Shown here: positions 1 to 7,247 of the stretch, in pieces
Layout of the letters: every line of letters begins with the position of its first letter
Position numbering within the stretch: position 1 is the stretch's first letter
Origin: Pseudomonadota bacterium
GTDB lineage: Bacteria > Myxococcota > Bradymonadia > UBA4248
DNA length: 8,450 bases
NCBI GenBank assembly: GCA_017613855.1
Contig: JAGACY010000396.1
Location: 1-8,450, forward strand
Direction: 5' to 3'
The notes under the pieces: model-generated
Seen by the model: only the letters and a program-made list of their open reading frames with translations
What the model was told of the DNA's origin: nothing
Databases searched by the model: none
Translations under genes and position numbers: made by a program

Positions 1-107
1 CCATCTTCTTTTCCAATCCTGATACCATCTTCTTTTCCAATCTTGAGGCCTTTTTTGTAGCCTGATTTCTCAGCTTTTCGGTATTTTCTGGCTTCATATT
101 CATCCAT
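1..107 (-). CDS. Partial duplicate of the Rpn C-terminal domain (candidate stand-alone small protein)
   Basis: The reading frame opens with an ATG at 107 and leaves the window at position 1 after 35 codons. It begins MDEYEARKYRKAEKSG and continues into the KEDGIRIG repeat. A GAGG Shine-Dalgarno site lies at 114-117, six bases before the ATG, and a GTG at 119 is an alternative start. The ATG lies 15 bases after the stop codon of the neighbouring nuclease gene, so coupled translation is plausible. Bases 1-119 are identical to 340-458 inside that gene, so this is a tandem copy of its 3' end without the nuclease domain. The obvious reading is a free-standing version of the C-terminal domain, which in E. 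coli Rpn proteins is made by internal initiation and inhibits the nuclease. It could equally be decaying duplication debris; the end of the frame is not visible. Confidence 0.55.
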   Translation of the reverse strand, partial: MDEYEARKYRKAEKSGYKKGLKIGKEDGIRIGKED

Positions 108-119
108 ACTGCGCCTCAC
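1..119. repeat. Direct repeat, copy 1 (identical to 340-458)
   Basis: All 119 bases match 340-458 at an offset of 339 bases, without a mismatch. Identity ends at the GTGAGG that carries the internal Shine-Dalgarno site: the next base is A at 120 but T at 459. The left end lies outside the window. The pattern is what a tandem duplication of the nuclease gene's last 339 bases would leave, and the lack of any difference suggests it is recent or kept uniform by recombination. Confidence 0.95.
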
Positions 120-122
120 ATA

Positions 123-1064
123 CTACTTCACTTCTTGTTGTTTAATTCGTTTAAGCTGTTCTTCTGTCAGACCAGTTGCTTCAAGTATCTGAGAATCACT
201 AAACGATCCCGCCTGCATCATGCGCATTGCTGTGTTTTTGATACCATTCGCTTCACCGATTTTGATTCCATCTTCTTTTCCAATCCTGATACCATCTTCT
301 TTTCCAATCCTGATACCATCTTCTTTTCCAATCCTGATACCATCTTCTTTTCCAATCCTGATACCATCTTCTTTTCCAATCTTGAGGCCTTTTTTGTAGC
401 CTGATTTCTCAGCTTTTCGGTATTTTCTGGCTTCATATTCATCCATACTGCGCCTCACTATTTTGTCCGCTTTTACATGTGCTACGCGTTTGGCAAACAC
501 AGCATCCTGCATCTGCTTAGGATCTGCGCAGCTAAAGTCATGCATTAGTTTACCCAAATCAGAATCATCACGCCATAACCCATTCACAAAAATAATGGTG
601 GTACCTACGCCGGTTTCCTCGCCATTCTGGCCTCGCAGAGAATATCGGTAAAAAGGGTTTTCATGGCAATTCTGGCCATCCCTCGTAATAAAAATGACAA
701 ACGTCCTGGGAATCCAGCGTTTTTTATTTTTGCGCTTTGAAAAGAAAACCTTCATCGCGGCACCGTTGTAATCTGCACGTTCTATACTTGCTCCCGCAGC
801 ATTATTTTGAATTTCGATATTATAATGCACTTTATCATCATCAAGTGCATGGACATCCATGCGAATTCCCGTACCGGTATTGAATTTTAATGGGTATTCG
901 ACATGTACTTTAGTGACATGCAATGATATTTTCAGGATAATTCGCAGCATGTGTTCAACCACATCAGGTGCATTGTTAAATACATGAAACATCAAACAAT
1001 CCGAGTACATCGTCATGCGGGCATAATTCGCATGCCTGACGCGACGCTTTCTTTTCGCAGTCAT
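123..1064 (-). CDS. Rpn/YhgA-type PD-(D/E)XK nuclease (putative transposase family)
   Basis: This 313-residue protein fits the recombination-promoting nuclease (Rpn) family, whose members are DNA endonucleases of about 300 residues once annotated as transposases; some act in phage defence. The PD-(D/E)XK core is visible as D70 in GIRMDVHALDDD followed by E84 and Q86 in YNIEIQN. The tail after residue 210 is charged and repetitive: five KEDGI(R/K)IG units, then a typical ending with AGSFSDSQILEATGLTEEQL. I chose the ATG at 1064 because AGAGGAG (1072-1078) sits seven bases upstream; the frame is open further up to 1256, but only across a terminator. An internal in-frame ATG (446, residue 207) has its own GAGG site and could give a 107-residue C-terminal protein. 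The upstream terminator suggests it has its own promoter. The family call is firm; biological role (defence, recombination) is inferred. Confidence 0.88.
   Translation of the reverse strand: MTAKRKRRVRHANYARMTMYSDCLMFHVFNNAPDVVEHMLRIILKISLHVTKVHVEYPLKFNTGTGIRMDVHALDDDKVHYNIEIQNNAAGASIERADYNGAAMKVFFSKRKNKKRWIPRTFVIFITRDGQNCHENPFYRYSLRGQNGEETGVGTTIIFVNGLWRDDSDLGKLMHDFSCADPKQMQDAVFAKRVAHVKADKIVRRSMDEYEARKYRKAEKSGYKKGLKIGKEDGIRIGKEDGIRIGKEDGIRIGKEDGIRIGKEDGIKIGEANGIKNTAMRMMQAGSFSDSQILEATGLTEEQLKRIKQQEVK
126..446 (-). CDS. Candidate internally translated C-terminal Rpn protein (RpnS-like)
   Basis: Inside the nuclease gene and in the same frame, an ATG at 446 (Met207) follows GTGAGGCGCAGT, which offers GAGG six bases before the start. 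Initiation here would give a 107-residue protein made of the charged repeat region and the C-terminal TGL-containing tail, lacking all catalytic residues. For E. coli rpn genes it is reported that such an internally initiated C-terminal product binds the full-length toxin and blocks it. Here the same site also marks the exact border of the downstream duplication, which supports its being a functional unit. The stop codon at 123-125 is shared with the full-length protein. No expression can be read from sequence, so this is a candidate. Confidence 0.5.
268..387. repeat. 24-bp tandem repeats encoding (KEDGIRIG)n
   Basis: Four perfect 24-bp units lie at 268-291, 292-315, 316-339 and 340-363; a fifth (364-387) shares its first 17 bases. 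A more divergent relative (244-267) codes for GIKIGEAN. Because 24 is a multiple of three, gain or loss of units changes the length of the protein tail without shifting the frame. The exact identity of the units points to recent expansion. Confidence 0.93.
340..458. repeat. Direct repeat, copy 2 (identical to 1-119)
   Basis: This is the copy inside the nuclease gene. It encodes the linker from VRRSMDEYEARK to the first two repeat units of the protein tail. Its right border coincides with the GAGG site for internal initiation. Confidence 0.95.
447..458 (-). promoter_or_regulatory. Internal ribosome-binding site within the Rpn gene
   Basis: GTGAGG at 453-458 puts GAGG six bases before an in-frame ATG at 446. 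An identical site at 114-119 precedes the duplicated C-terminal frame. Confidence 0.5.
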
Positions 1065-2889: not shown

Positions 2890-2981
2890 ACCTAATCTCG
2901 AAAAACGCGAAGGCCGTTAGGCCTGAGCAAATCCATTTGTAATCATTAAAGGCTCTTGTTTAACGAACGTGGATACGACTT

Positions 2982-3098
2982 GAGCTTGTAGCTCATAGCT
3001 TATAGCTTATAGTTGAGAAATCATTTCATGGGAATTATGCTTTTGCCCACAAGATTCTGATTACTTCTACAAGCTAAAAGCTAAAAGCTATAAGCTCG
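2982..3098. repeat. Inverted pair of AGCTTAT heptamer arrays
   Basis: Four 7-bp units (AGCTTGT, AGCTCAT, AGCTTAT, AGCTTAT) lie at 2983-3010. Four related units in inverse orientation lie at 3067-3098. The two arms can pair along about 31 bases with a few mismatches, enclosing a 54-base loop. The intergenic region (2864-3143) between the TonB gene and the cysteine-cluster gene otherwise shows no coding frame. The heptamer differs in sequence from those in the other intergenic regions, but period and inverted layout are the same. Confidence 0.85.
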
Positions 3099-3143
3099 AA
3101 CGATTTCATTTACCCCAAATACCCGTCTCGTACAACAAAGCCT

Positions 3144-3557: not shown

Positions 3558-3802
3558 TGTTTTTAATGCGTAATTCGTAATTCGTAATTCGTAATTAGAG
3601 GATGACAAAACTAAAGAGTAAGTCTGAAGCTAATGGGGAGTTGTGTTCTAATTTGTAATTCGTAATGCGCAATTCTCAATTGAATATGCAACCCCCAAAT
3701 GTCACTCTAAAGCTATAATGTCTATATTCTTTAGGAATTAAAAAGAGAATGCCGGAATAATTACGCATTACGCATTACGCATTACGCATTACGCATTACG
3801 AA
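3558..3802. repeat. Composite intergenic repeat B (heptamer arrays plus core)
   Basis: The whole gap between the ComF stop codon and the next start codon is repeat-like. From left: four TCGTAAT-type units (3568-3596), a core of about 50 bases with TCTGAAGCTA at 3623-3632, four degenerate units (3650-3677), a spacer, then six ATTACGC units (3760-3801) in inverse orientation. The last array ends one base from the ComF stop codon. The spacer holds ATGCAACCCCCAAATGT (3686-3702) and, on the plus strand, a TATAAT at 3714-3719 with no matching -35 box. No gene is seen. Confidence 0.85.
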
Positions 3803-4471
3803 TTATTTAACGGCGTGTGCCAGAGCCACAAATCCGACCCATGGGGCACCGGCAGCCTTGAGTGTAGTTGCGCAAGCGGCGGCGGTTGCACCTGTCGTAG
3901 TCACATCATCGATGAGAATGACCTTTTGGGGAGCGAATTTTTCGGAGACTTTAAATGCACCATCGAGATTGTGAACGCGTTCATCGTGGGTGAGTCCTGC
4001 CTGATGCGGGGTATGGCGCGTTCGAGTGAGTACGTCGTCTCTAAAATCGGTGTGAATGCCGCTCTGTACAAGGATCTTGTGCAGTTTTTCGGCAAATGTC
4101 CATACCGGATCAAAGCCGCGTTCCCGCAGTCGCCTGGGATGGGGGGGGACGGGAATGAGACATGCATTATCGGGAATGAATGGCTTTAAACGCTCGATAT
4201 TTTCCGGCAAAAAGGAGAGCAAAGCTTTTTGGGCACTGTAATCCTCGTGGTATTTCCACTTGGCAATCATGTTCTGAACGGCGCCTTCATACCGAAAGAT
4301 GGCACAGGCACAGTCTATTGGTTCTGATAATGGAATTTGTGGTGCTTCCAAAACAGAGGCACGGCATTCTTCGCACAGAAGATCTTTAGGCTGTGGCAGC
4401 AGGACATCACAGGATGCACATCGTGTGGGCCAAATCACATGTTTAAGAGCGTCAAGCGTTTCGAGGAACAT
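3803..4471 (-). CDS. comF: ComF family protein (phosphoribosyltransferase-like)
   Basis: The 222-residue protein has the ComF layout. An N-terminal four-cysteine zinc knuckle (C18-x2-C21, C33-x2-C36) comes first, then the conserved LIPVPPHPRRLRERGFDP at 105-122 and TRTRHTPHQAGL near 149-160. The C-terminal part is a type I phosphoribosyltransferase fold with the PRPP-binding loop VILIDDVTTTGAT at 184-196. In naturally transformable bacteria ComF takes part in DNA uptake or processing; in others the homologue (GntX/ComFC) is kept without clear role. No other competence gene is in the window. The ATG at 4471 lacks a Shine-Dalgarno site; a heptamer array starts eight bases upstream of it. The stop codon is nearly fused to another array. 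Confidence 0.9.
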   Translation of the reverse strand: MFLETLDALKHVIWPTRCASCDVLLPQPKDLLCEECRASVLEAPQIPLSEPIDCACAIFRYEGAVQNMIAKWKYHEDYSAQKALLSFLPENIERLKPFIPDNACLIPVPPHPRRLRERGFDPVWTFAEKLHKILVQSGIHTDFRDDVLTRTRHTPHQAGLTHDERVHNLDGAFKVSEKFAPQKVILIDDVTTTGATAAACATTLKAAGAPWVGFVALAHAVK

Positions 4472-4691
4472 TGTTATTAATTAGCAATGCGCAATTAGCA
4501 ATGCGCAATTGGATGGCAAAAACTAAGGTTAATTCTGAAGCTAAGAGTAAGTGTGTGTTTTATTCGCAATGCTGAATGCGGAATCATTTTTTCAACGATG
4601 ATTAAAAACAAAGGATTTAAGTCTTTTTATATTTTTGAAAATGCATTGAGGAGGACTTGCAAATTGCTCATTGCGCATTGCGAATTGCGCA
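4472..4691. repeat. Composite intergenic repeat C (heptamer arrays plus core)
   Basis: Layout as in repeat B: four units (ATTAGCA/ATGCGCA, 4480-4510), the core with TCTGAAGCTA at 4534-4543, three degenerate units (4562-4582), an AT-rich spacer, then four inverted TTGCGCA-type units (4664-4691). The last unit touches the rlmH stop codon with no base between. The core holds a short frame from 4513 that starts MAKTKVNSEAK and ends after 20 codons; it is probably chance. No gene is otherwise seen. Confidence 0.85.
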
Positions 4692-7178: not shown

Positions 7179-7247
7179 ATTGCGCATTGCGCATTGCGCA
7201 TTGCGAATTAAAACAATTCCGCATTCCGAATTCCGCATTCCGAATTA
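7179..7247. repeat. Two heptamer arrays before the ABC-F gene
   Basis: Four ATTGCGC-type units (7179-7206) are followed after a nine-base link by four ATTCCGC/ATTCCGA units alternating (7216-7243). Both have the same orientation. The second ends four bases before the ATG at 7251, leaving no room for a normal ribosome site. Confidence 0.88.

Follow-up and report, generated by a model that had tools for sequence, protein, structure and literature searches.

This locus raised the question of whether the end of an Rpn-type nuclease gene had been copied behind its own stop codon as a separate antitoxin-like cistron. The window (the whole 8,450-nt stretch of DNA analysed) opens with bases that recur inside such a gene. 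According to the preprint of Zhong et al. 2023 (PMC10327210), translation of Rpn genes from an internal start yields a small C-terminal protein, and this protein blocks the nuclease. Four-residue repeats in the first helix of the small protein influence specificity; they vary in number and begin 8–20 residues past its Met, and in RpnC one repeat of difference abolished neutralisation. The same preprint describes the small protein as encoded a second time behind rpnE (as ypaA) and, for part of the strains, behind rpnC; its authors propose that these copies are independent in origin, and they also report loss and fusion of rpnS. Judged by titles and abstract openings among the matches listed, no other paper on stand-alone Rpn tails was found.

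The nuclease gene and the repeated block

The gene (123–1,064, minus strand; stop codon TAG at 125–123) encodes an RpnL-like protein of 313 residues (P0001). P0001 matched NCBIfam TIGR01784 with 41.6 bits (E 1.2e-10), under the cut-off of 52.1 bits, and matched none of the Pfam models. Its relative P0008 cleared the PF12784 threshold (28.7 vs 27.4), and PF12784 was present in 107 of 111 more distant relatives (P0011–P0121) among the matches listed (best 120 of 127). Residues D70, E84 and Q86, which we take to be the catalytic residues of PD-(D/E)XK nucleases, were invariant in 37 aligned sequences and followed the D...ExQ pattern. The AlphaFold2 model of P0001 had a mean pLDDT of 81.5, with a helical tail from residue 201 and pLDDT below 50 at residues 241–267. 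The PDB sequence search gave three matches at E 0.27–0.29, and Foldseek with the model gave nothing at E ≤ 0.001.

An RpnS-like frame of 107 residues (123–446, minus strand) starts in frame at Met207, which was invariant across the 10 sequences of alignment A1 and is also the start of predicted stand-alone proteins. A GAGG Shine-Dalgarno (SD) motif (453–456, minus strand) stands 6 nt ahead of this ATG at 446, before the helical tail. The tail contains four-residue repeats of the RpnS kind, in the register GYKK-GLKI-GKED-GIRI and onward from its residue 16. The repeat search placed a 24-nt tandem array, coding for 8-residue units of the GKEDGIRI type, at 263–385 (minus strand); a simple count of the pattern gave 0–6 units among relatives. 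The gene is provisionally placed in the Rpn/PD-(D/E)XK family. What has been copied is the predicted RpnS-like tail together with the SD and ATG that belong to it.

The sequence-only reading had described an exact repeat of 119 bases, and this was borne out: bases 1–119 equal bases 340–458 (both on the minus strand), the parental copy being the latter. The flanking bases 120 (A) and 459 (T) differ, and no 120-mer is repeated in the window. All remaining exact repeats of at least 40 bases lie within the region of the 24-nt array; within the block, bases 1–46 are array sequence and bases 47–119 lie outside the array. On the coding (minus) strand the identity opens with GTGAGGCGCAGT-ATG, and the border reported at the SD of the internal in-frame ATG was likewise found in the sequence. 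A 3-nt junction (120–122, minus strand) separates the stop codon from the copy. The ATG of the copy (105–107, minus strand; SD GAGG at 117–114) is located 15 nt past the nuclease stop and in the same frame as the stop, in agreement with the sequence-only reading. The copy thus shows the SD and start of a stand-alone rpnS cistron of the ypaA type, and its visible part is 119 bases; the frame runs off the window at position 1, inside the 24-nt array. The promoter scan of the window found 5 candidates against 3.2 expected in shuffles, none inside the repeated blocks.

The closest genome match was a Myxococcales metagenome-assembled genome of UBA4248 (G001), at 79% identity. Its locus L001 is orthologous: the adjoining leader and TonB-type gene are 82% identical in DNA to those of the window. 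L001 has the identical SD and ATG but, unlike the window, no copy downstream of the nuclease gene; G001 does hold a downstream tail copy at another Rpn gene, L062. Between the window and L001, the same codon was used at 33 of 37 identical residues in codons 201–238 and at 114 of 172 in codons 1–200 (Fisher 0.005). Because codons 141–160 were equally high (17 of 19), the sameness in 201–238 hints only faintly at a constraint at the DNA level. The viral contig collection, scanned with alignments A1 and A2, contained no relative, and 8 records were matched in the phage collection, none of them reaching 60% identity.

Other repeats were observed in the window. The leader upstream of the rpn gene (about 1,080–1,199) was 90–93% identical to that of the orthologue, above most of the gene, and a similar stretch occurred at two further places in G001. 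Intergenic arrays of a heptamer type (AATTCGTAATT / AATTGCGCATT) were located between many genes (3,564–3,596, 3,760–3,805, 4,479–4,510 and 7,179–7,246), and stretches resembling them matched many places in G001. An intergenic stretch at about 2,950–3,106 (roughly 100–160 bp) matched at least 11 places in G001 at 77–89% identity and is a dispersed repeat.

Tail copies behind other Rpn genes

Rpn-family ORFs from 250 loci (L001–L250, L094 being rpnE of E. coli MG1655) and from the window were surveyed. An initial look at 59 loci (57 testable) had shown an adjacent copy at L011 and merely short or weak matches at L040 and L043, 3.3 and 4.2 kb away. The first survey used ORFs of at least 180 residues with at least 350 nt downstream, duplicates by the last 150 residues being removed; 11 of 115 genes were positive at E 1e-3. 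The second survey covered 196 unique ORFs of this kind, with copies accepted at E 1e-4, at least 50% identity, on the same strand and within 1.5 kb downstream. The search for rpn genes followed by a C-terminal copy, suggested by the sequence-only reading, was successful, with 13 of the 196 positive (the window, rpnE and 11 of 194 others). Compared with the first survey, L107 was lost and L188 was gained; L107 was restored for the border test described below, giving 14 pairs. One of the 196 ORFs, the second ORF of L081, is itself a copy.

By source, tail copies were found in 1/49 for the mixed loci of the L001 search, 1/2 for an additional small locus set, 4/9 for the class of the closest genome (one of the nine itself a copy), 4/26 and 0/17 for the class of the Synergistaceae genome, and 1/26 for the family of G062 (genome of L026, Roseburia sp.). 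The family of the Treponema genome gave 0/24 and 0/41, that is, 0/65 ORFs. Some genomes of this family (loci L131–L160 and L211–L250) had dozens of Rpn-family matches, for example 40 in G214 and 37 in G197, and several matches in the family covered the profile only partly.

As a control, 487 ORFs of the same loci outside the first Rpn profile were searched and gave 15 matches; the number was corrected to 484 ORFs, L187, L188 and L094 being Rpn genes missed by that profile. A match of at least 65% identity over more than 10 residues was found for 1 of 484 control ORFs (L101, 1.4 kb away) and for 10 of 115 Rpn genes of the first survey, all of the latter within about 230 nt of the stop. The rest of the control matches were one of 10 residues (L020) and ten at 28–54% identity. 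L101 was considered as a possible Rpn gene and rejected, as it had no similarity to the Rpn set; it stands as the one non-Rpn positive.

Outside the window, broken copies (truncated or frameshifted) were present in 5 of 13 pairs (L062, L103, L107, L121 and L188), and at least one full tail frame was kept in 8 of 13. L081 and L119 have two successive copies each, one per locus being broken.

The position of the border was compared among the pairs. In L100, L103, rpnE and the window, identity begins at the SD itself, 10–12 nt before the ATG (L100, GGAGAGAGCGCA-ATG; L103, GGGGAGCGTG-ATG; rpnE, AAGGAGAGATTA-ATG; window, GTGAGGCGCAGT-ATG). In 9 of 14 pairs the border preceded an SD-bearing in-frame ATG by 0–25 nt, whereas borders placed at random in the same genes, 450 to 90 nt ahead of the stop, would give 1.44 such pairs; 0 of 200,000 simulations reached 9, the 25-nt limit and the SD definition having been set after the pairs had been seen and some loci sharing a genome. 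Without the window and E. coli the count was 7 of 12 (1.23 expected, p 4e-5), without L107 as well 6 of 11 (1.16 expected, p 0.0003), and, when each of the two genomes that had contributed two loci was also cut to a single locus, 4 of 9 (0.86 expected, p 0.005). The exceptions were L119, L062, L121, L188 and L063; in L063 the SD-ATG lies 40 nt within the border. Loci of rpnC in E. coli, which are outside the 14 pairs, contradict the rule, similarity beginning just after the internal ATG. The shared border, by which copies retain the internal ribosome-binding site, supports on comparative grounds a role of internal initiation in Rpn genes outside E. coli and C. difficile, the species in which it has been shown.

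The lengths of the internal tail and of the copy were 78 and 66 residues in L100, 87 and 72 in L063, 108 and 96 in L102, 96 and 72 in L081 (second copy), 56 and 61 in rpnE, and 77 and 72 in L078. The repeat region differed between nuclease and copy in 5 of these 6 measured pairs; in L078 the repeats were alike and the end differed. The copies of L011 and L119 kept a full tail frame, and their repeat regions differed by eye. Because one repeat of difference abolished neutralisation in the RpnC experiment of PMC10327210, mismatched copies would not be expected to neutralise the neighbouring nuclease. The proposal in the sequence-only reading that the copy gives extra or decoupled antitoxin was therefore weakened in one part: with 5 of 6 measured pairs differing in the repeat array from the parent, "extra" is doubtful as a general rule. 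The mismatch poses a sharp question, namely whether downstream copies neutralise their neighbour or do something else.

One speculative answer, which we consider unlikely, is that in several lineages antitoxin cassettes have arisen from Rpn loci time and again, anchored at the internal ribosome-binding site and in some loci (L081, L119) doubled, with repeats out of register with the adjacent nuclease. Such cassettes could store other specificities, either as immunity to ancestral or foreign Rpn alleles or as donors for recombination at the common start block. In that case they would not serve as additional antitoxin against the nuclease beside them, and donor recombination would give a nuclease a new tail and the matching new antitoxin in one step.

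Stand-alone tails and the origin of the copy

The query with the 107-residue tail returned 23 proteins, of which 11 (P0122, P0124–P0131, P0133 and P0134) start exactly at the Met207 equivalent (MDEYE or MDQYE). P0144 and P0152 came from a further search by profile (40 proteins), giving 13 predicted stand-alone proteins with this start. Many stand-alone tail proteins come from short contigs, and some may be gene fragments at contig edges. Whether these tails are no more than nuclease genes that lost their 5' part at a contig end and were called from the internal ATG is a side question compatible with each explanation of the window, and the answer yes seems to us somewhat improbable. It would agree with the identity of P0128 to the C-terminus of P0132, with the truncated proteins P0123, P0132 and P0135 starting elsewhere than Met207, and with the fact that 164 of 165 proteins (P0001 included) start with M, so that 5' partials are seldom visible in the database. 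Against it, Met207 starts exceeded other truncation starts by 12:3 (without P0152) with 33:81 codons available (binomial 6e-5, a rough value, as contig ends are non-uniform and gene callers prefer SD starts). P0130 and P0131 have the same contig count and the same longest contig (994), which suggests two tails on one contig, and P0152 (37 residues) sits on a contig of 11,749 bases and continues differently.

For the window itself, we consider it likely that the locus is a gene-within-gene Rpn toxin-antitoxin in which the RpnS tail was tandemly duplicated behind the stop codon, forming a second, separately evolving rpnS cistron. A PD-(D/E)XK nuclease (RpnL) would be made from the full frame and its C-terminal helical tail also alone (RpnS) from the internal SD and ATG, both starts being used and the tail inhibiting the nuclease. 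The tail, from its ribosome-binding site onward, would have been duplicated directly behind the stop codon; the second cistron, presumably intact, would probably be read from the same mRNA and, by analogy with other pairs, would be expected to drift to a repeat number unlike that of the parent, hence to a different specificity. The sequence-only reading had also seen the tail as duplicated into its own cistron; this part fits the relatives and the recurring tail copies, and the idea itself was already published for E. coli rpnE/ypaA and rpnC (PMC10327210). Several points count against this explanation: the copy is visible as just 119 bases at the window edge, the orthologous L001 lacks the copy, none of the 65 Treponema-family ORFs has one, five of the 13 copies outside the window are broken, the similarity in the E. 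coli rpnC copies starts after the internal ATG, and many of the stand-alone tails may be fragments at contig edges.

The absence at L001 would also agree with an assembly artefact or repeat-end effect, in which the contig stops on re-entering a repeated k-mer, the 119-base overlap is the k-mer size and the true arrangement may differ. The match reaches the window edge and is exactly 119 bases long, no 120-mer being repeated, and 119 is a k value in the default list of a common assembler. An artefact, however, gives no reason for the junction to coincide with the SD of an internal start, 3 nt past a stop codon. The same type of junction occurs inside contigs elsewhere (L100, L063 and L102) and in the complete E. 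coli chromosome, and a k-mer loop would presumably itself require real reads over the junction; we regard this origin as very unlikely. The broken copies in 5 of 13 pairs speak instead for the copy as evolutionary debris: the gene would be rich in repeats and evolve fast, and repeat-mediated tandem duplication would have left the copy behind as a by-product without selected function. The variation of the arrays among relatives and the rpnS loss and fusion reported in PMC10327210 point the same way. Random debris, however, would not favour an SD-bearing internal ATG as border, as seen in 9 of 14 pairs against 1.44 expected with a threshold chosen post hoc. A full tail frame was kept at least once in 8 of the 13 pairs outside the window, and predicted stand-alone proteins with the conserved start exist in relatives. 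We judge debris an unlikely account. Most likely the window carries a genuine tandem duplicate of the rpnS part, similar in kind to ypaA and in a lineage new for this layout.

Comparison with known systems

The tandem copy in the window was compared with E. coli rpnE/ypaA (rpnES in PMC10327210). Both have a tail copy directly past the nuclease stop with identity from the internal SD (AAGGAGAGATTAATG in rpnE), and the start codon of the copy follows the nuclease stop by 12 nt in rpnE/ypaA and by 15 nt in the window. At 61 residues, the ypaA copy exceeds the internal tail (56) by 5, whereas the visible 119 bases in the window are identical. RefSeq labels RpnE inactive and ypaA a pseudogene.

E. 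coli rpnC/rpnCS (also in PMC10327210) resembles the window in having a separate tail cistron behind the nuclease gene, but its similarity begins about 100 nt past the stop, immediately behind the internal ATG rather than ahead of it. Among five E. coli rpnC loci (from 40 listed), four had a tail copy and the fifth was interrupted by an insertion sequence. The rpnC tail query matched 6284 places in 5374 of 5426 E. coli genomes, up to 6 per genome; because there are 6284 matches in 5374 genomes, extra or split rpnC tail copies are present in part of the E. coli strains.

The Synergistaceae loci L100 and L011 (G058) have a tail copy 6 nt (L100) or 15 nt (L011) past the stop, like the window, but their Rpn sequences are more distant. 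In L100 the copy is short of 12 array residues, and the L011 copy differs in the repeat region too. The window extends the layout known from E. coli to a distant lineage, for which the closest genome was assembled from a metagenome; the survey extends it to several further lineages.
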